Assembly (NCBI GenBank): GCA_020847545.1
Contig: JADLBV010000094.1
Location: 1 to 48,517 of the forward strand
Source: Phycisphaerales bacterium
GTDB taxonomy: Bacteria; Planctomycetota; Phycisphaerae; Tepidisphaerales; Tepidisphaeraceae
Direction: 5' to 3'
Length of the DNA: 48,517 bases
This document shows, piece by piece, positions 16,631-39,206 of this stretch (position 1 is the stretch's first letter; the number at the start of each line of letters is the position of its first letter). Made by a program: the position numbers and the translations under genes. A model generated the notes under the pieces. The model saw nothing but the letters and a program-made list of their open reading frames with translations, was not told the origin of the DNA and ran no database searches.

Positions 16631-19600
16631 TCAACTGCAACCCATCGAGTTTCCACAATTGAGGCACTTGTAGCAGGTTCCGCTGCGGACGGTGATGCTG
16701 CCGCAAACATCGCACGCTGGGGCATCCGCCTGCATTTCCGAACCCTGCTGGCTGAGCGGATCGGCAACGATCGTCAGCCGCAAATTGGGGGCGGATTGAG
16801 CCGATTCGGCCGGCACATTTTGCGATGAACCACCCGCGGCATCCAATTGTTGCTGCAATCCTGAACCATAATCAAACGGCTTGGCGGTATCCGGCTCCAG
16901 TCGCGGGCCGTGGCCGTTGCCGCTTTTGTCGGCCGGCTCGGCGGCGGCCGGCGGATTAGGGTTTGATGAACCCTTGCCCTTGTCCCGTTTGGGGGCGTTG
17001 GTGGCGCGATAGCCGGGGATGAATTCCATCGCCAGCCAGCGGAAGATGTAATCGACCAGGCTCTTGGCGATGGGGATTTCCGGGTTGCGGGTCATGCCGC
17101 TGGGTTCAAAGCGCACATGCTCAAACTTGCGCACCAGCGATTCCACCGGCACACCATATTGCAGGCTGACCGAGACCAGCGTGGCGATGGCGTCCATCAG
17201 GCCGCCGATGGTGGAGCCTTCCTTGGCCATGGTGATGAAGACCTCGCCGGGCTGGCCATCTTCGTACAAACCGGCCGTCAGGTATCCTTCGTGACCGGCC
17301 ACATCAAACTTGTGCGTGATGGCGTTGCGCGTGTCGGGCAGCCGACGGCGCAGCGGGCGTTCGACGATCCGTTCGACGATCCGTTCGATGACGCGGGTGT
17401 GGGCCGGCTCGATGTTGTCGGCCGTCACCGCGGCCACCGCCTTGGCGGTGTCGGATGCCAGTTCGGCCTTGGCCGCCGCGACGTTCTGTTCATCATCATC
17501 TTCCGCCGAATCCAACTCCTGATCGCTTTTGACATTCAACGGCTGGCTGAGCTTGCTGCCGTCGCGATAAAGCGCGTTGGCCTTCAATCCAAGCTGCCAA
17601 CTGAGCCAGTAGGACTGTTTGATCTGGTCCACATCCGCTTCGTTGGGCAGGTTGATCGTCTTGGAGATCGCCCCGCTGATGAACGGCTGGGCGGCGGCCA
17701 TCATGCGAATGTGACCCTCGACCGCGATAAATCGCCGGCCGTGCTTGCCGCATTTGTTGGCACAATCAAAGACCGGCAGATGCTCGGCCTTGAGATGGGG
17801 CGCCCCTTCGATGGTTCCCCGGCCGCAGATGACATCGTTGGCTTCGTTGATCTGGCGATTGTTGAAACCCAGCCGTTTGAGCAGGTTGAACGATGGGGAC
17901 TGCCATTCGGCCGAATCAATCCCCAGTCGCTGGAGCGTTTGCTCCCCGATCGACCATGCGCTGAAGGCAAACCCGATCTCAAACACGCCCGGCAGGGATT
18001 GCTCGATTTTGGCCAGCTCATCCTCCGAAAAGCCCGCGCGTTTGAGGTTCTCCCAATTGATGTGTGGGGCATCGTGCAGCGACAGCGTACCCATGACATA
18101 TTTGAGAATGTCGTGGATTTCGTTGCTGGAATAGGCCAGATTGACCAGCGCCGGCCGCAATGATTGGTTGGCGATTTTGAAATATCCGCCGCCGGCCAGT
18201 TTCTTGAATTTGACCAGTGCGAAATCCGGCTCGACGCCCGTGGTGTCGCAATCCATCAACAGGCCGATGGTGCCGGTGGGGGCGATGACGGTGGTCTGCG
18301 CGTTGCGGAATCCGTGCCGTTCGCCCAGTGCCAGCGCCCGATCCCAGCATTCCTGCGCGGCCCGCAGCATCTGCGGACTGGCCAGCGCCTCGCCGGGGGC
18401 GAATTGCGGCAGGTCGATGCCGACCGGACGAATATCCAGCGATTCGTATTCGCCGTGGCTCTTGCGGGCATCGGCGTTGTGGGCCGCATCATAGGCCGCA
18501 CGACGGTGGTTGCGCATCACCCGCAGCATGTCGGCCTTGTTTGGCTCATAACCGGGGAACGCGCCCAGTTCGCAGGCCATTTCGGCGCTGGCGGCGTAGC
18601 TTTCGCCGGTCAAAATCGCGGTGATCGCGGCACAGATCGCACGTCCCTTGTCGCTGTCATATGGAATGCCGGCCTGCATCAACATCGCCCCCAGGTTGGC
18701 ATATCCCAACCCCAGGGTGCGATAGCGATAACTGAGACGGGCGATTTCCTCCGAGGGGAAACTGGCCATCAGCACCGAAACTTCCAGCACCATCGTCCAG
18801 AGCCGCGTCGCATGCTTGAACGCCTCGATGTCGAAGGTGCGCGTCTCGGCGTCGAAGAACGTCATGACATTGAGCGATGCGAGATTGCACGCGGTGTCAT
18901 CCAGGAACATGTATTCCGAGCAGTTGTGAACGGTCAGCCCGTTGGCGACAAACGAATGCGTCACCGGCTCGGTCAGGTCAAACACCTGCTGGCGGCCCAA
19001 TGAATCCAATCCCGCCACGCGGTCCCAATTGCCATCGTGTTCCGGCCGGGAAATCGCGTAGCTGATGGCGTCGGCGAGCTGTTCGTGCTTTTTGCCCGAC
19101 AGCAGACCGACGTATTTGGCAAAAGAGCGGAGACTGCCTGAGTCGATACGCAGGCCGTGGCGCGGTGTTTCCGCGTTGCCGCAATGCTTTCGCGGCCCGG
19201 GCAAATTCACCCGGCGACCAGGCAGTTCTCCGCTGGCGTTGGCTCCGCCATCGCCATATGAAATCAATGCGCTTTGCACCCCGAATCCCAGCAGCAACAT
19301 CTGCACATCCTGCAAAAGCGATGCGCTGTCGCACACCAGTTCCAGCGTGCCGTTGTGGATGCGGCCATCGGCCGTGAAGAGCGCCCGCAGCAGATGCCGC
19401 TGGGCGGCCAGGCCGGCCGTGAACGCATCGTCGCTCAGCCGTCGCTGGCCGGCGTCGTTGCGGACATAGGCCTTCAACCGGCTCATCAGCCGACGGTTGG
19501 TCAACGTGACGGTCAGCGTGTTGCCCGATTCCAATTCATCGCAGTCGCTGTTGTCCACCATCAATTGGTTGACGTAATCATCGGCGTAGCTGCGGGCGCC

Positions 19601-21745
19601 CCAGTTGTCGTGCACATAATGGGCATAATCCTCGACCAATGCCGGCTCGCGCAGGCAGGTCTCCAGATGCAACGAGGCCGAATCATCATTGGCGGCCGAC
19701 AGGAACAACCCCAGCAGATGGAAAAATCGCTGGTCCTGCGGCTCGCCGATCTCCTGCACCGCCGCCGGCCGGCTGGGCAGACGAACTTCATCGCCGCTGG
19801 TCAATTCCTCCGCCGCAATCCAGCCGCGTCGGCGGGTCCAGACCTTGTGGTCGGCGGTCAATTTCAGCCGGTATCCACCCACCGTGCGCAGTTCATACAC
19901 CTCACGGGTTCCGGTTGGGAAAGACCCTTCGGTGATGTGGATTTCCTGGTTCGACAAATTGGTCACCACGCGGCTGGGCAGATGGATCATCTGGTCGATC
20001 CGCCGCCAGATGCCGCCGGGAGTCAGGACGCGCGTGTCGCCGGTGACACACGGGTTGGAGGCGTTGATCCGCCCGCTTTTGGGGCAGGTGTGCCACTGGT
20101 TGATGGTGTCGTCAAACTGCACGCCCGGATCGGCACATCGCCACGCGGCGAAGGCGATCTGTTCCCACAGTTCGCGCGCCTTGATTTTGTGGGAGGTCTT
20201 GCCGTTGGTGCGGTTGGTCAGATGCCAGTCCCCATCCTCCTCGACGGCCTTGAAGAACCGATTGGGAATGCGGACCGAGTTGTTGGAATTTTGCCCCGAA
20301 ACGGTCGCGTACGCCTCGCCGTTGAAATCGTAATCCAGTTTCAATCCCAGTTTCGTCGCCAGATCACGCTGTTCCTGCGGCAATTGCTTGATCCCCTCGG
20401 CCAGCGCCGCCACTTTCAGCTCTTCGCGCACCTTCCAGTTGACGAACTGTTCGATGTCCGGGTGATCGAGGTCCAGACAGACCATTTTGGCCGCCCGACG
20501 GGTGGTCCCGCCGCTCTTGATCGCCCCGGCCGCCCGGTCGCCGATCTTGAGGAAGCTCATCAACCCCGAACTTTTCCCCCCGCCGCTCAACGGCTCATTT
20601 TCCCCGCGCAACCGCGAAAAATTGGACCCCGTCCCCGACCCATACTTAAAGAGCCGCGCCTCCCGCGTCCACAAATCCATAATCCCCCCGGAATTCACCA
20701 GATCATCGGAGACGGATTGGATGAAGCAGTTGTGGATGATGACATCGCCCGACAAATACTGGCCACTCGTCGTCTGGATATCATAAACTCGTTGAGGACC
20801 AATGCGTCTAATATTCGTAATTTTGACGCGAATCAAAGTTGTGCAGTAAGTTTCGACCGCAACTATGCCATGATCTTCCGGCTTGCAGGGCAACTCAATA
20901 CGTTTGAAAAGGAATTCACCAACACGAAGTTGGCCTAATTCACGCCACTCACCCTCTTCCACATTATCAGATGCAACCCAGACAAGATGATCTGCTGTCG
21001 CTTCAAGAACTTCATTACTACCATACCGCACCGCCCAAACATCTTTAATACCGTTATCAAGCACGGCGACTACGCGTGCAATGGCATCACCATCATATTG
21101 GCCATCAAATACTTCCAATCCGATCAAATTTTTCTCTACAATTTCCCCGATCGGAATCGGCCCCTGAGGCGTGGAGACCGGCGCATGATACGGCTGGCAC
21201 GCATGGGGTTGCGGGTGCGAATACGCATCCTTGGATTTCATCAATTCGCCGGATCGCGGGTCGCAGTAATAGTGGCCCTGGCTGGGGCCGGTGATGCCGT
21301 AGGCGAAATTCAGGCCGGTGTTGAACCATTGCGGGCTGTTGGGGGCGCACATCTGGTGCAACAGCATGTACGATAATTCATCGTAAAACGCCTGCGCATC
21401 CTCGGCCGTATCAAAATAGCCGTTCTTTTCGCCCCAATAGCGCCAGCAGCCGGCAAGGCGGTTGACCACCTGCTTCACACTTTTTTCCGGGCCGGTCACG
21501 ACATTGCCGGCGGCGTCACGCATCACCTGGCCGCTGGAGTCCACCTGCGGCACGCCCGCCTTGCGGAAATACTTGCTGACCATGATGTCGGTCGCCAACT
21601 GCGACCAGGTCTTGGGGATCTGGGCGTCGGTCATCTCAAACACGACACTCCCATCCGGATTGGTGATCCGGCTGGTGCGGTTCTCATATTCAACTGTCGA
21701 AAAGGGATCCGGTCCTGGTTTGGTAAATCGGCGCGTGATCTTCAT
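16631..21745 (-). CDS. nrdJ: B12-dependent ribonucleotide reductase with two inteins
   Basis: Class II (adenosylcobalamin) ribonucleoside reductase; makes deoxynucleotides without oxygen dependence. The precursor is 1704 aa; without inteins about 1171 aa, normal for the long planctomycete form. Family marks: [46 protein letters not shown], and a C-terminal zinc ribbon (CDVCG, then CYKCLNCG) preceding the end. Two inteins interrupt it at residues 183-339 and 566-941. The ATG at 21745 (MKITRR) is chosen because GGAAGG lies 9 bases before it; a TTG at 21754 is the alternative. About 40 bases separate it from the cyclase gene. dcd lies upstream on the same strand, giving a small dNTP cluster. I saw no cobalamin riboswitch in the 112-base leader. 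Confidence 0.95.
   Translation of the reverse strand: [1704 protein letters not shown]
18923..20050 (-). mobile_element. Intein 2 in nrdJ (376 aa, decayed LAGLIDADG endonuclease)
   Basis: Starts [10 protein letters not shown] and ends LTVHN, with Cys (CSEY) as the +1 residue, so splicing joins SNP to CSEY. Block B is [11 protein letters not shown], block F [9 protein letters not shown] then [12 protein letters not shown]. Between them, about residues 105-330 form a LAGLIDADG endonuclease domain. The second motif (LRALFTADG) keeps its catalytic Asp. The first (LLGLFLSAA) has Ala in place of the acid, so cutting activity is probably lost. Unlike intein 1, its base composition matches the host gene, suggesting longer residence or a high-GC donor. 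Confidence 0.92.
20729..21199 (-). mobile_element. Intein 1 in nrdJ (mini-intein, 157 aa)
   Basis: Coding segment from Cys (CQPYHAPVS) to the terminal His-Asn (DVIIHN), with Cys as the +1 residue (CFIQ). The splicing blocks are visible: block B [10 protein letters not shown] with the T-x-x-H motif, and block F [13 protein letters not shown], then IIHN. At 157 residues there is no room for a homing endonuclease, so it is a mini-intein. Removing it restores the extein QPHA/CFIQ. A hand count over 420 bases gives roughly 47% GC, against about 60% in the flanking extein, so it looks foreign. Confidence 0.93.
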
Positions 21746-21857
21746 CGTTATCAACCTTCCGTTGGCTTAAATTTCACTTCCAATATGAACCCGTGCGCCA
21801 CCCGTGATCCGGCGTGCCGCATGTCGGCGGCGCCGCGGATCGACCGGCGGCTTTGAT

Positions 21858-25185: not shown

Positions 25186-27381
25186 CTACGGAACATCTCC
25201 CAACATCCGGGCGGCGGGTGATCCCGGAGCGATCATCGCGCTGCGCGGATCGGCTTTGCGGGAGGTTTCCAGCGCCTGGCGGAAGCCTTCGAGATTTTGC
25301 CAATCAACATGCCCGTCGCCGTAGAGGATGTTGGTCGCATCTTCGCTGAGCAGCGCCGCGCCATCGTAGGCAACGACGATTTCGGGGCTGATGTTCGTAT
25401 CCATGCCATCATAGTGGAGATAGACCATATCCTCGCCGGCCGGGTCTTCACTGTATGGGGAATGCAGGACATCCACCGTCAAATCCTGCGTCGCCAGCAG
25501 GGTTTTGAAATCGGGTGGATAGTTGCCTTTGTTTTCGTTGGAATACAAAAGCAATCCCTGGCCGATCTGGTGCAGATTGGAGGCACTGCGCGCCTGATCG
25601 GCGGAATGATCCTCCTGCAACATGGCCGGCAGAATGACGGATGCCCACAAACCAGGCGCGGTGATGGTCAGTGGGGATAGCAGAGGATTGTCGATGGATT
25701 GGGTGCGCCAGACTCCATCATCGGTGACATGGACCGACATCGCATCACCGCCGACATAGGTCAGCAGTCGTTGCATGGAGGGGAGCAGGTCGCCGGGGAC
25801 CATGCTCTGATCAAAGGCGCGAAACGCCGACACAATAACCAGCGCCAGTGGATAGATATCACGCACAACCTGCGGATTGGAGATGTAAACCAGTGGCCCA
25901 CCCTCCTGTGCGGCACGGGCGCGGGCGGTGGTGAACCGGGCATCCTGCAGGATATTTTCCTTCTGTTTCAGTTGACGAATGGCATCTTCCACCAATTGTG
26001 GATAAAGCGCCACGATGAATTTGTCTCCCGCCACCGCCCACGAACCTGAAAAGGGAACGCCGCCGGCGGCATCGATGTAATGAACCGTCACCCCATCGGA
26101 ATCGAATTCACGAATGGCGCCGCCGCGGCTGCCGGAGAGATCCTCGGAGATCATCTTGCCGATGATGTCCAGCGACCGGCCAAACCGCCGCGGATCATCC
26201 ACCGTCCCCACCAGCGTCCAGCCGGTCAGAATGAACCCGCCGGTGGAGGGGGCGTTGTAGATCACCCACTGGTCGCCGATGGGATCGAGAATGTCCTGCA
26301 AGGGGAGGCCCATTTTTTTGACATCCTCCTCAATCAGCTCGAAGGTGCGGTCGGCTTTTTCCGGATCGATCAATTGTGCGGCGGTTTTGACCTGTTCATA
26401 CAGCTTGGACAAATCCAGCCGCCACGCCGCCACGGCATACGCATCGGGCGGGACGGCCGCCAGCGTCGCATCATCCACCGCGGGCGACTTGAGCAGCGTC
26501 ATCAATCCATGCGGAGGGGTGGTGGTGCGCACCAGCGAGCGGGTGATGAAATGGCCATCGGCAACCACCGTTTTTTCGACAAAGGATCGCGCATCATCCA
26601 GGCCGGCCGCCTGTAATACCTTGGCCCAATTTTCCTTGAATTCGTGGAAGGGTGAATAGGTGTCATCAACCAGCATCCGTGCCAGAATATCCCGCGCCGG
26701 CTGGCCGCCGATGAAGGTGGTCACGATCGACTCGCCGGGGAGTTTGGCCATGGCGTCGACGAAATCGGGTGAATTTTTCAGTGATTTTTCCGGCTTGTCG
26801 CCGATCAGCGTGGGCAAAAAAGTCTCGGCGTTGGAACCCCAATAGGCGACAAACAGGTCGCCGACAAACCCCCAGACAAATCGCGGCCGGTCCTTGCGAT
26901 CCGCCTCCACCCAAAGCCAGGAATTTTCCAGCTTCATCATCTGCACGCGGTCGCCAAGACGATCCTTGAGGCGCTGGTGAATGGGCTGGAACAGTTTTTC
27001 AAATTCAGGTTTGCGCGCCGCCAGGTTGATCACCAGCACCGATTGGGTGATGGTTTTGCGTTTGTCCCTCTTCATGTCGAGCATGGCGAAGCACCCTTCG
27101 CATTGCAGGACATCCTTCAACATCGGCAGCACTTCATCGGCCGAGGCGGGAACCTCGCCGGTCTGGATGAAAATTTCATTGAGGATGGCGCGCCACGGCT
27201 TGACCACGCGCTGGTCTGCCAACATCCGCGCCGCGGCCGTGTCCTGCATCGACGCGTTGGGGGACCAGCCGATATACACCAGCGTCTCCGGCGGCATCCG
27301 GTCGGCCATCGGCTGGGCCATGGCCGTCGATGTGAGCAACGCAATGACGATTGAAAAAACCGAGAGACAAGCTGATTTCAT
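25186..27381 (-). CDS. Secreted DUF3352-like protein with pseudopilin-like C-terminal domain (copy B)
   Basis: 731 aa with a Sec signal peptide (cleaved near AMAQ). The N-terminal ~570 residues resemble DUF3352-type secreted proteins (MADRMPPETLVYIGW). The C-terminal ~140 residues resemble the soluble part of H-X9-DG pseudopilins: ASNLHQIGQGLLLYSNENK, then NILYGDGHVDW. The conserved His before DG is missing here. It is a diverged paralogue of the 736-aa gene upstream. Its ATG overlaps the preceding TAA by one base (TAATG), and GGAGG within the last codons of the previous gene serves as ribosome site. It is the last of three coupled genes. Function unknown; secretion and cell-surface contact are likely. 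Confidence 0.82.
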   Translation of the reverse strand: MKSACLSVFSIVIALLTSTAMAQPMADRMPPETLVYIGWSPNASMQDTAAARMLADQRVVKPWRAILNEIFIQTGEVPASADEVLPMLKDVLQCEGCFAMLDMKRDKRKTITQSVLVINLAARKPEFEKLFQPIHQRLKDRLGDRVQMMKLENSWLWVEADRKDRPRFVWGFVGDLFVAYWGSNAETFLPTLIGDKPEKSLKNSPDFVDAMAKLPGESIVTTFIGGQPARDILARMLVDDTYSPFHEFKENWAKVLQAAGLDDARSFVEKTVVADGHFITRSLVRTTTPPHGLMTLLKSPAVDDATLAAVPPDAYAVAAWRLDLSKLYEQVKTAAQLIDPEKADRTFELIEEDVKKMGLPLQDILDPIGDQWVIYNAPSTGGFILTGWTLVGTVDDPRRFGRSLDIIGKMISEDLSGSRGGAIREFDSDGVTVHYIDAAGGVPFSGSWAVAGDKFIVALYPQLVEDAIRQLKQKENILQDARFTTARARAAQEGGPLVYISNPQVVRDIYPLALVIVSAFRAFDQSMVPGDLLPSMQRLLTYVGGDAMSVHVTDDGVWRTQSIDNPLLSPLTITAPGLWASVILPAMLQEDHSADQARSASNLHQIGQGLLLYSNENKGNYPPDFKTLLATQDLTVDVLHSPYSEDPAGEDMVYLHYDGMDTNISPEIVVAYDGAALLSEDATNILYGDGHVDWQNLEGFRQALETSRKADPRSAMIAPGSPAARMLGDVP

Positions 27382-27905
27382 TACAGTCCTCCGTCTTTGG
27401 GCAGATTGGGGTTGGTTTTACTGGCTAAGATGATTTGATGCTTGGCTTCGGGCAGTGATTGAAACTCAACGTGCCCATCACCATAGCACAGGCACACACG
27501 CCCACGATGATGATCACGCAATTTTTCATAAATCAAAATCTGCTCAGGAGTCGACATATTGTCCAGGCCCGCGCCAGCATAAACATAATCGCTGTATTCA
27601 TTGACCCATTTGGCCATTTCTTCTTTACTCTTGAGATTTCCGGGAACCAATGTGCCGGATGAGGGGCAGACAAATTCATCAATCGTCACCTCCTGTGTCA
27701 ACAATAATGTCCCAAAATCGGGTGGGTATTTACCCTTGTTCCCTTGGGCATAAAACAACATCGCCTGTCCCAGTTGCCGCAGGTTGGAAGCACATACGAT
27801 GGGATTGGCAACATCGGGTGTGTGACGAAAGGAAGGCAGCAGCATCACGGCCACTATGATCAGGGCGATGGCGATTGTAATGATCGAGATGCTAGTTATC
27901 TTCAT
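27381..27905 (-). CDS. Stand-alone pseudopilin-like H-X9-DG protein, 174 aa
   Basis: One N-terminal hydrophobic helix (SIITIAIALIIVAVMLL), then [20 protein letters not shown] and an intact H-X9-DG motif (H, nine residues, DG; ends CYGDGHVEF). The prepilin peptidase motif (G-FTLIE) is absent, so it is probably a membrane-anchored derivative and not a processed pilin. After the first ~30 residues it is nearly the same as the C-terminus of the 736-aa protein encoded just upstream, including the closing LPKDGGL, which points to a recent tandem duplication of that domain. Coupled by TAATG overlaps on both sides. Confidence 0.85.
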   Translation of the reverse strand: MKITSISIITIAIALIIVAVMLLPSFRHTPDVANPIVCASNLRQLGQAMLFYAQGNKGKYPPDFGTLLLTQEVTIDEFVCPSSGTLVPGNLKSKEEMAKWVNEYSDYVYAGAGLDNMSTPEQILIYEKLRDHHRGRVCLCYGDGHVEFQSLPEAKHQIILASKTNPNLPKDGGL

Positions 27906-30115
27906 TACAGTCCTCCATCTTTGGGCAGATTGGTGTCGGTTTTGCCGGCCGATTCGATTTGACGCTGGGCTTCGTACAACGGTTGAAATTCAACATGCCC
28001 ATCCCCATACAGCATGTTCATCCCCTCGTGGTCATGGGCGGAGGATGATTCATGGATCAAAACCCGGTCGTACGGCGCTTCGTTGGTCAGGCCCGCGCTG
28101 GCGTAGACATAATCGCTGTGTTCATTGACCCACTTGGCCATTTCTTCCCTGTTTTTGAGGTTTTTGGGAATCGTTGTGCCGGAGGAGGGGCAGACAAAAA
28201 CTTCTAGAGTCAAATCCTGTGTCAATAACAATGTTCCAAGGTCCGGGGGATATTTACCCTTGTTTTCATTGGCATACAGCATCATGCCCTGACCCAGTTG
28301 CCGCAGGTTGGAAGCGCATTTGACGCGGTTGGCCGTCTCGCGGGCGCGACCAAACTCCGGCAGCATCACGGCCACCATGATCGTGGACTGGTTGTACATC
28401 ATGCTGCTGATCGGATCGATCACCAGCGACTCGCTGCCGGGGAAGGGGCTGATCGATTTGGCGTAAAAACCCTCATCGTCACTCCATGCGACCATTCCGG
28501 CCGGGGAGAGTTCGGCCATCAATTTTTCCAGCGGCGGAACCACCATCGCCGGCGCGGGGACGCCGAACAAATCCCCAAACCCCAGAATCGTCCGCGAGAG
28601 CATCAGCCAGGATTGATAACCCAGCGGCGCGGTGTGGGGCAGGTCGAGATATTGCAATGTTCCCGCCTTGGGCCGGCCGAGACGGTCGGCCAGGGCGTTG
28701 AATTTGGGGTTGTCCAGAATCGACCCTTGATCGGCCGGCCGTTGCGCCGCGGCGGCCACTACCTGTGGATAGAGGCCCAGATACAACACCCCATCGTGAA
28801 CCGTCCATGCCGGCGCGATGGCCGGTATGGCCAGATAATGAATCTCCAAGTTGCCGACATGGGTTTGTCGAAACGAAACTTTCACCTCATTGGTCAACTT
28901 GGCCATGAACCCATTGGCCGCGTTTGAAAGCTGATCCAGTGATTTGGCGATTTTGGCCGGGTCTTTGAGGCGATTGGCGAAGACAAGGCCCATCAACCCT
29001 TCGCCGCCGATGGAATCATCCGCAAAATAAGCCCATTCATCCCCCAGATTGTTCATCAGGTCCTGTCGAAGGTTAAACCCGACAGCCTTGTTGGCCTGCT
29101 GCATCCCCTGTTCAAAGTCGGCCAGCCAGTCCGGGTCCAGCGTGGCCAATGCCTGCTGAATCTCGGTCACGAGGCGTTCGGTGCTGAATGATAACGCCCC
29201 GGCCAAAAACGCATCCTTGGGCAGCAACGACAGGGTCTCCTTGGAGACCGGCATGGGATCAATGATCGCCAGCAATCCCCTGCGGGGTGCGGGGGCGGCA
29301 ATCCAGACCTGTTGGGCCCAGTCGCGCTGGTCGAAGCCGCAGGTCCAGATGATCTGGCGCAGGCCGTTCAATCCGAGTGCTTCGCGGATTTTGGGCCAGC
29401 GGGCGATGGTCTCCTTCTCCTTTTGGGCGTCGATCAGTTGGCCGACCATCGTCAGGACGGACTTGGCATTGATGTAAACCACCGCCGCGGGGGAGGATTG
29501 CACGCGGGAGGTTGAGTTTTTGAAGGTGTCGTCGGTGGCCAGAGAGGGGGCCGTGGCCGCGTTGGATGGCTGGTCGAGCAGCGCATCGATCGTTTCGCTT
29601 TGGCCAACCGTCAACGCGACGAATTGGCCGTGACGGGCGGCCTTGATGTCAATCGGCGTCGGCGGCAGCTTGCTGAGGATGATGTTGAGCTGTTTGAGCA
29701 GTTCAGGGGCCTGATCACCCGCATCGCAGATCAAAGCCAAGCGCACCTTGATCTGGTCGGGCGCTGCGGCCGGATCGGCGGGCAGGTCAATCCCGCCGAA
29801 ATAGAGCGCTGATGGATGTCGCCACATCAACGGAACCAGCGCCTTGGCGATCACCATCGCCTCGGCCGCATCCTGATCATCCCCGGCGATTTTGGTCAGT
29901 GCCTTGGGGATGAAATCCTCAAACACCTGGCGGATGTTTGAGGATTCAACCACCGCGCGCAGATGGGATTCCTGATAAGCGCCGGCCAGCGAGCGGCTCC
30001 CCTGCCAACCGATATACAGCATCGCATCGGCCGGCACACGGTCGGCCAGCGGCTGGGCCATCACAAGGGATGAAATCAGAATGCCAAAGACAAAAATGAT
30101 CCGACGAACCCACAT
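27905..30115 (-). CDS. Secreted DUF3352-like protein with pseudopilin-like C-terminal domain (copy A)
   Basis: 736 aa, signal peptide ending near VMAQ. The N-terminal ~560 residues look like DUF3352 (ADRVPADAMLYIGWQG). The C-terminal domain begins with the back half of a pilin helix (MVAVMLPEFGRARE) then [20 protein letters not shown] and NMLYGDGHVEF. It therefore carries the globular part of a pseudopilin in the middle of a secreted protein, with no prepilin signal. First gene of the array; the start has GGGAGG, and an inverted repeat lies upstream (30149-30168). The last codons (GAC GGA GGA CTG TAA) also form the ribosome site of the next gene. Confidence 0.82.
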   Translation of the reverse strand: MWVRRIIFVFGILISSLVMAQPLADRVPADAMLYIGWQGSRSLAGAYQESHLRAVVESSNIRQVFEDFIPKALTKIAGDDQDAAEAMVIAKALVPLMWRHPSALYFGGIDLPADPAAAPDQIKVRLALICDAGDQAPELLKQLNIILSKLPPTPIDIKAARHGQFVALTVGQSETIDALLDQPSNAATAPSLATDDTFKNSTSRVQSSPAAVVYINAKSVLTMVGQLIDAQKEKETIARWPKIREALGLNGLRQIIWTCGFDQRDWAQQVWIAAPAPRRGLLAIIDPMPVSKETLSLLPKDAFLAGALSFSTERLVTEIQQALATLDPDWLADFEQGMQQANKAVGFNLRQDLMNNLGDEWAYFADDSIGGEGLMGLVFANRLKDPAKIAKSLDQLSNAANGFMAKLTNEVKVSFRQTHVGNLEIHYLAIPAIAPAWTVHDGVLYLGLYPQVVAAAAQRPADQGSILDNPKFNALADRLGRPKAGTLQYLDLPHTAPLGYQSWLMLSRTILGFGDLFGVPAPAMVVPPLEKLMAELSPAGMVAWSDDEGFYAKSISPFPGSESLVIDPISSMMYNQSTIMVAVMLPEFGRARETANRVKCASNLRQLGQGMMLYANENKGKYPPDLGTLLLTQDLTLEVFVCPSSGTTIPKNLKNREEMAKWVNEHSDYVYASAGLTNEAPYDRVLIHESSSAHDHEGMNMLYGDGHVEFQPLYEAQRQIESAGKTDTNLPKDGGL

Positions 30116-30215: not shown

Positions 30216-31070
30216 TCAATACTTGAAACCGATCCCGATCCCACCCCACAACTGTGTGTCGGCGTAGACATTCTGGTTGATCCCATCGGTGTAGAACAGA
30301 TACCCCTCCAGATTCCACTGGCCATACCGCTGCGGGACATTGAAAAGGGAGTTGAGCGAATAATGGCCGATCAGGCCGACATCATAATGCTGGAATCCGG
30401 TGTCTTCCGGGGTGACGAATCCGAATTGCTGTTCGATCCCCAGAATGTAGGCCACATCCGCCACGAACGACACGGTGACGCCCAAATCCTCGATCAGCAT
30501 GTCATGTCGAATCCCCACCTCAAAGTACCACCCATGGTTCAGGTCATAGTCGTATGCCGCCAGCGCGTAGGGTTGAAAGACCGGCTTTTCGGTGTGGAAG
30601 ATGAACGAATCATCCAGCGTGATTTTGCACCAGACTTCGCCGGTGTTTAAGCCGTCCCGTTCGGGGTAGATGTAAGTGGTGTTGCCGCCGGCGAAGGTGA
30701 ATGGCCGCAGGGGCAATTCCAAGCCGAAGTAGGGGCGAATCTCCTGAAACCGCGACAACGGGTCCGAATCGAACACATTGGCGAAGACCCCCACAAACGG
30801 ATGGGGCAATTTCCCCAGGTCAAATTCCAGCGCGCCATCGAATTGCAGGTTGGGGGCGTCTTCGGCGCCCCCCACTTCGCTGTGATCGATGCCGCGATAG
30901 ACGTAATCGGTCAGGTATTTAACCGTCAGGTCCAGATTCACGCCACCCTGATTGATCCCATCTTCCACGCGCGGCGGGGCCGGCGGCGCGTAGACGCTCT
31001 CCGGCTCCACTCCCCGCGCCACCCCGACGCCCAACATCCCAACGGCAGCCCACGCCAACACTTGTCGCAT
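30216..31070 (-). CDS. Predicted outer-membrane beta-barrel protein (TorF-like porin)
   Basis: 284 aa. Signal peptide cleaved near residue 20 (GVARG). The mature part alternates short amphipathic strands and ends in an aromatic residue (GFKY), as beta-barrels do. VKYLTDYVYRGIDHSE near the N-terminus matches the TorF putative porin family. The role is probably outer-membrane passage or structure. AAGGAG ribosome site. Same strand as the DUF3352 array but separated from it by 100 bases and its own possible promoter, so linkage is uncertain. Confidence 0.75.
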   Translation of the reverse strand: MRQVLAWAAVGMLGVGVARGVEPESVYAPPAPPRVEDGINQGGVNLDLTVKYLTDYVYRGIDHSEVGGAEDAPNLQFDGALEFDLGKLPHPFVGVFANVFDSDPLSRFQEIRPYFGLELPLRPFTFAGGNTTYIYPERDGLNTGEVWCKITLDDSFIFHTEKPVFQPYALAAYDYDLNHGWYFEVGIRHDMLIEDLGVTVSFVADVAYILGIEQQFGFVTPEDTGFQHYDVGLIGHYSLNSLFNVPQRYGQWNLEGYLFYTDGINQNVYADTQLWGGIGIGFKY

Positions 31071-38402: not shown

Positions 38403-38428
38403 GCTGACTGCGGAAGATTCTTGCACAG

Positions 38429-38464
38429 ACCTGGAGGGCGTCGCGGGAGCGACTCCCTCCAGGT
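38429..38464 (+). terminator. Strong stem-loop after the PEP-CTERM gene
   Basis: ACCTGGAGGG pairs with CCCTCCAGGT; inside, one mismatch and then GTCGC with GCGAC around the loop GGGA. No T-run follows, so it may be a processing or stabilising hairpin and not a full terminator. It would lower expression of downstream genes relative to the PEP-CTERM gene. Confidence 0.55.
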
Positions 38465-38543
38465 CGGCAAGGTCGGAGCATCGTCAGTGCGAATGCGGAT
38501 CGAGAATAGGCGATACACGCAGGGTATTTTGAAAGGAGTTGAC

Positions 38544-39206
38544 ATGTTTCGACGCTTTCGCAGTGCGTTTACGTTGGTTGAGCTTCTGGTCGTAATCGGC
38601 ATTATCGCCCTTCTTATCAGTGTCCTGCTGCCGGCCTTGCAGCGCGCCCGTCAGTCGGCCTTGACGGTTGCCTGCGCCAGCAACCTGCGGCAGTTGGGTA
38701 TGGCGATGCAGATGTACGCCAACGATTCCAAAGGCATGTTGCCCGCCCCGTTTCCACGCGACCCGAACAACTACACGCCGGACATTCCCGCAGGGATGAC
38801 CTACTGGTTTCTGGTCTTGGGGCCGTACGTGCATGTGAACTGGGGCTGGTTGCCGGGGTATTCAACTCTGCCGGCGGACAAGCCGTCGGTGTTCGCCGAT
38901 CCGGCGCGCGATCAACTGAAGTTGTACATTATAAACGGACTGCATTACGGCTTTAACGGGGAAATGGGAGCGCGGAAGCTGCCGCAAATACGTGGAAATC
39001 GCGTGCTGCTGGCGGACGCCACGGGGTATTTTTTCCTGAACAACCGCTGGTCGGCGTTTGTATCTCAGTATCATTGGAAGCTGGGAACGGTCATCACGCT
39101 GGATTACAAACGTCATCCCAAGGGATTGAATCTTTGTTTTACGGATGGACATGTGTCGTTTGTACGCCCCGATGAAGTCACCACTACGGTAATGGATGAC
39201 CAATGA
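38544..39206 (+). CDS. Pseudopilin with H-X9-DG domain
   Basis: 220 aa. Classical prepilin start: [15 protein letters not shown] with the conserved Glu, a hydrophobic helix to about 35, then [20 protein letters not shown]. The C-terminal motif is exact: His, nine residues, DG ([17 protein letters not shown]). Such proteins are processed by prepilin peptidase and packed into a type II secretion-like system; in planctomycetes and Lentisphaerae they often stand beside glycosidase genes. GAAAGGAG ribosome site. Its stop overlaps the start of the GH42-like gene (ATGA), which links it directly to sugar breakdown. Confidence 0.94.

Follow-up and report, generated by a model that had tools for sequence, protein, structure and literature searches.

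Three adjoining genes (A, B, and C) in a Phycisphaerales genome encode proteins that end in a domain homologous, as judged by profile comparison, to the H-X9-DG/DUF1559 pseudopilins. The explanation favoured here, considered reasonably probable as a whole, is that A and C are members of an old exported family whose pilin head serves in docking or binding, and that B arose by tandem duplication. What the sequence evidence itself indicates is narrower, namely that the domain has been kept without the parts for pilus assembly. The locus lies in a window of 48,517 nt (the whole stretch of DNA that was analysed, contig JADLBV010000094.1), and its features are collected in Table 1.

Table 1. Features of the A-B-C locus and of other genes in the window (window coordinates).
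Feature	Position	Strand	Description
Gene A	27905-30115	-	736 aa; Sec-type signal peptide, DUF3352-like body, C-terminal pilin head
Gene B	27381-27905	-	174 aa; free, putatively membrane-anchored copy of the head; chimera of C start and A end
Gene C	25186-27381	-	731 aa; paralogue of A, architecture shared with A
Pilin-type domain of A	27905-28390	-	About residues 576-736: helix remnant, globular part to GDGHVEF, short tail
Pilin-type C-terminal domain of C	25186-25650	-	33% identity to B, E 5e-22; from alignments
B codons 1 to ~17	27855-27905	-	From the start of the C signal peptide, without cleavage site; part of the hydrophobic helix
Exported protein	30216-31070	-	284 aa; directly upstream of A
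Ribonucleotide reductase	16631-21754	-	B12-dependent, 1,707 aa, with intein
Control pseudopilin	38421-39206	+	Ordinary H-X9-DG pseudopilin

The genes are transcribed in the order A, B, C, with 1-nt TAATG overlaps at the gene junctions, and the Sec-type signal peptide of A is MWVRRIIFVFGILISSLVMA-QPLADRVP. A and C can be aligned over their full length (23% identity, E 4e-52, blastp), and B aligns with the C-terminal 157 residues of A at 62% identity (E 9e-65). The window genome also encodes D, a third paralogue with this fusion (G000:C148; 36% over full length), and about 75 H-X9-DG pseudopilins. In Pfam, A matches DUF3352 (PF11832) over the cut-off (39.1 bits, gathering score 26.8) and SBP_bac_10/DUF1559 barely above it (24.0 bits); C matches DUF3352 alone (16.7 bits) and B matches SBP_bac_10 alone, both sub-threshold. 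The family profile A2, of whose 24 rows C is one, covers C end to end, and DUF3352 is matched at E 0.01 in 18 of 24 fused relatives. Within the DUF3352-like body, a repeat is weakly discernible (probability 60, E 9e-5; 0.3 for a reversed control). Two other genes of the window deserve mention. The exported protein upstream of A gave zero matches in Pfam and NCBIfam searches and has, by eye, the look of an outer-membrane barrel. The ribonucleotide reductase carries its intein at residues 597-944 (Pfam Intein_splicing and LAGLIDADG_3), and a shorter second intein-like insert was seen by eye near residues 189-341.

The original prediction, made from the DNA of this window, held that the C-termini of A and C match the post-helix part of H-X9-DG pseudopilins, and proposed profile searches, structure prediction, and a survey of planctomycetes as checks. 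When the C-terminal domains of the fused proteins were made into a profile and compared with 23 pseudopilins of the same genome using hhalign, the match extended over 140 columns (probability 99.95, E 3e-38), and the globular part alone, with the helix and the next segment removed, still matched the same pilins (97.6%, E 3e-12). The corresponding profile of the N-terminal body served as a control and gave 0.3%; chance similarity of the head to pseudopilins is thus ruled out by the profile comparison. Similarly, the AlphaFold2 model of B (pLDDT 81.5, pTM 0.73, 6 sequences), in which helices are followed by three strands, agrees with the type IV pilin fold of a long helix packed on an antiparallel sheet. 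Of 501 PDB chains aligned to this model with VIA-align, just three had Z >= 2, all of them type IV pilins or pseudopilins: PilA4 (Z 6.9, 119 of 125 residues), PAK (4.4), and the Xcp pseudopilus (3.9), values that are middling because they lie below 8. Foldseek by itself found no match at E 0.001 for the B model in the PDB and a viral library, and among solved structures the fused-family profile matched GspG only, marginally (E 0.09) and in the helix region. A full-length model of A had a pLDDT of 36 (4 sequences) and was not used. Among the 23 pseudopilins compared, the best match to the domain of A is C69 (E 5e-23; runner-up 5e-17), which has in common with A the segments RARETANRVKCASNLRQ(I/L)GQ, TQD(I/L)T, EVF-CPSS, and LFGDGH or LYGDGH, and which is placed within the fused clade of the domain tree with moderate support. 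On the strength of this E value and tree position, a pseudopilin of the C69 type is the likeliest type of donor.

The homology predicted for A and C therefore holds, but the term "post-helix" does not, because the match starts inside the helix. In an alignment of 25 fused proteins, the conserved part starts at about SILLPSLNRARE, past the midpoint of the pilin helix; the hydrophobic half of the helix and the prepilin signal have been lost at the join, and the C-terminal half of the helix has been retained. The helix remnants of the fused proteins are weakly hydrophobic (median KD17 1.56, versus 3.1 in prepilins), although 16 of 56 reach a KD17 of at least 1.8 and are hydrophobic enough for a membrane helix. 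As anticipated for A and C, no prepilin (class III, GFxxxE) signal was found in A, B, or C with Pfam N_methyl and TIGR02532, whereas the control pseudopilin has the prepilin signal and matches N_methyl and TIGR04294 above cut-off. The H-X9-DG motif model TIGR04294 remained below the NCBI cut-off (19 bits) in A (16.6) and B (12.6), and gave no match in C. The exact spacing is present in B (H133-X9-D143-G144), and in A it is X8 or X10 rather than X9.

B had been described as a duplicate of the domain with a new membrane anchor, and the origin of both parts can be traced. From nt 45 through the stop codon, the DNA of B can be aligned with the 3' end of A at 74% identity, and 34 of 51 positions are identical between nt 1-51 of B and nt 1-51 of C. 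When the first 33-48 nt of B were compared with every ATG of the window on both strands, none but that of C matched as well. Additionally, GGAGGACTGTAATGAA occurs at the junction of A with B as well as at that of B with C. These alignments show B to be a chimera of the C start and the A end. A tandem duplication spanning the A/C junction, running from the helix segment of A into the signal peptide of C, would have given rise to it; the observed arrangement, C[1-16]::A[579-736] flanked by complete A and C genes, is exactly what such a duplication yields. It follows from this chimeric origin that the helix of B (ISIITIAIALIIVAVML) is the core of the C signal peptide, with its cleavage site lost, joined to the pilin half-helix. 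Its KD17 of 3.14 equals prepilin strength. B offers a clear instance in nature of a new membrane protein assembled from the signal peptide of one gene and a domain of another.

In the congener Phycisphaerales bacterium SJ572, A directly abuts C, with no B between them. In a tree, B, A, and the congener orthologue of A are grouped with a support of 0.999, and the order inside this trio has a support of 0.32; loss of B in the congener through recombination between repeats is possible. The dS between A and B is 0.68 and the dN/dS about 0.36 (dS between A and its congener orthologue, 0.54-0.62), from which it follows that B is no assembly duplicate and is probably kept under selection. That B has instead no role and is decaying, having been produced as a by-product of the duplication, would fit its presence in only one of the two genomes seen in the genus and is a real possibility, though the lesser one, since its frame has stayed open across this divergence, its H-X9-DG spacing and DGH are intact, and its anchor is as hydrophobic as that of prepilins. 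Outside the host class, a free head (155-aa ORF) overlaps the start of two successive fused genes (L143:1806-6789, G395), and is possibly an independent case resembling B.

A and C each consist of a DUF3352-like body, possibly of two related halves, a short linker, and a head derived from an H-X9-DG pseudopilin. Their helix retains the portion packed against the head but has lost the portion that lies in the membrane and filament core, and the prepilin peptidase site is gone as well. The absence of these parts suggests that the head is located in the periplasm and remains unpolymerised. In B, the uncleaved core of the C signal peptide takes the place of the hydrophobic helix half, and B is therefore predicted to be a head tethered to the inner membrane. 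The head itself may most plausibly be a docking or ligand-binding module, either through head-head contact with real pseudopilins or through binding of the same targets as their heads. This prediction, like the location and topology proposed for the three proteins, is inferred. The neighbours of A-type genes (yidC, mnmE, and nfo) are housekeeping genes and are silent on pili. Of three Sec/SPI proteins with an SBP_bac_10 domain in Tuwongella immobilis, two occur in all cell fractions according to PMC8567305, which by analogy would be compatible with a soluble protein, though unspecific.

Alternatively, the head could be a fold that has merely been kept and contributes nothing related to pilins, the activity residing in the DUF3352-like body. 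Among the 147 body matches listed for the class, 31 end before the head, three members of the family are apparently truncated there, and C lacks the His of H-X9-DG. However, 112 of the same 147 extend through the head, the DGH end and other positions are nearly invariant among 24 fused proteins, and a pairwise comparison of the domain between congeners gives a dN/dS of about 0.3; a passive head is considered the less likely reading. More improbable still is that A and C are odd pseudopilins that have gained a large N-terminal extension and still assemble into filaments. The helix remnant and head are retained, some other fused proteins have a more hydrophobic remnant, and the host genome encodes several T2SSF proteins and an A24 prepilin peptidase, but the class III signal is absent, a Sec-type signal peptide occupies the N-terminus, and the helix half that forms the filament core is mostly gone.

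A docking or binding head could have a wider bearing. In Planctomycetota, the pilin head may be a portable periplasmic binding module that functions outside filaments in many architectures, with B as a case in which a captured signal peptide restores the shape of a membrane-anchored pilin without prepilin processing; this generalisation is offered tentatively, and is more doubtful than the explanation of the locus. Head-bearing architectures include DUF3352-like bodies, DUF4190 or plain membrane anchors, and malectin with two heads, and the stand-alone anchored heads, often in tandem, together with the two-headed malectin protein show the head to be widely mobile within this group. For the H-X9-DG pseudopilins that planctomycetes carry by the dozen, and whose role is unknown, a soluble exported head would be a simple reagent for finding head ligands.

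Several further head proteins were encountered. Genomes of the family (L071, L072, L083, and L085) have clusters of two to three short proteins with a plain membrane anchor and a pilin head, one anchor with DUF4190, and no prepilin signal. Two heads per protein are found at L073:526-3039 and at L074:2393-4405, the latter with malectin (E 3e-26) at its N-terminus. In the viral contigs searched, one stand-alone head was found (L125:1293-1988, IMG/VR contig 3300010396_000095), a protein of 231 aa with a zinc-ribbon-like N-terminus and a membrane segment; its gene adjoins that of a large protein resembling, by eye, a phage tape measure.

The A and C fusion, as judged from its distribution, is old and widespread in Planctomycetota. 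In the host family, a full-length fused protein is present in at least 17 of 26 genomes, and the architecture extends to about 20 families within the class and to other classes of the phylum. The planctomycete survey gave profile matches in 129 of 297 genomes of the class at E 1e-30, and outside the class there are bodies with a full-length DUF1559 domain (e.g., L131, 850 aa, E 2e-55) and a body with a short head (L142). Five genomes of the host family were without a match in the class survey, suggesting that the fused protein is dispensable. When A was scanned against genome contigs, the congener SJ572 was the sole match. Within the family, A-type genes lie between mnmE and nfo in several genera, often with yidC before them (yidC-mnmE-[fused gene]-nfo), and in L057 three paralogues in tandem, with 4-nt overlaps, directly follow mnmE. 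A second conserved neighbourhood, consisting of a class-I GATase-domain gene and a gene for a protein of ~490 aa without Pfam match, was seen for D-type fused paralogues (L075 and L081). Divergences of the N- and C-terminal parts are correlated within the class (Mantel rho 0.43, p 0.001). In two or three unfused members of the family, an -LP- remnant is found at the join, which suggests loss of the head rather than an unfused ancestor. The domain tree, of 141 columns, is too weak to give the number of fusion events, and in it the fusions with full-length DUF1559 from outside the class branch elsewhere. That the A and C fusions reflect recent domain shuffling in the host lineage, as the recent B between them might suggest, is so improbable that it can be dismissed, given full-length fused relatives throughout the family, class, and phylum, the conserved A-type synteny, and the correlated divergence of both parts. 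The idea of domain shuffling caught in the act therefore applies to B, with its chimeric junction, but not to A and C.

Parts of this architecture have counterparts in known systems. DUF3352 (PF11832) is a Pfam family of unknown function whose match covers only the body of A, with the head outside it; in the literature searched, no mention of DUF3352 and no paper on a fusion of a DUF3352-like body to a pilin head were found. Sec/SPI proteins with an SBP_bac_10 domain have already been noted in one planctomycete proteome, that of Tuwongella immobilis. They share with A and C a signal peptidase I signal and the identical Pfam domain; the section of PMC8567305 consulted presents them as one architecture class, gives data on their cell fractions, and contains nothing on a DUF3352 body, distribution, or origin. 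The planctomycete H-X9-DG/DUF1559 pseudopilins (PF07596; TIGR04294) have the same C-terminal helix half (RARExANRxKCASNLRQIG), YANENKGxYP, CPS, and GDGHV. The proteins described here differ from them in that the head is shorter, lacks a prepilin signal, and stands at the C-terminus of large Sec-exported proteins, and in that the hydrophobic helix half is missing (A and C) or replaced (B). Modular pilins, such as PilB of Streptococcus sanguinis (PMC8179133), similarly combine a pilin module with an unrelated module. In PilB, however, the pilin is N-terminal, carries a class III signal, and polymerises, whereas A and C have the reversed order without the polymerisation parts. A and C carry a pilin-type domain but, by the prepilin-signal test, would not be assembling pilins.
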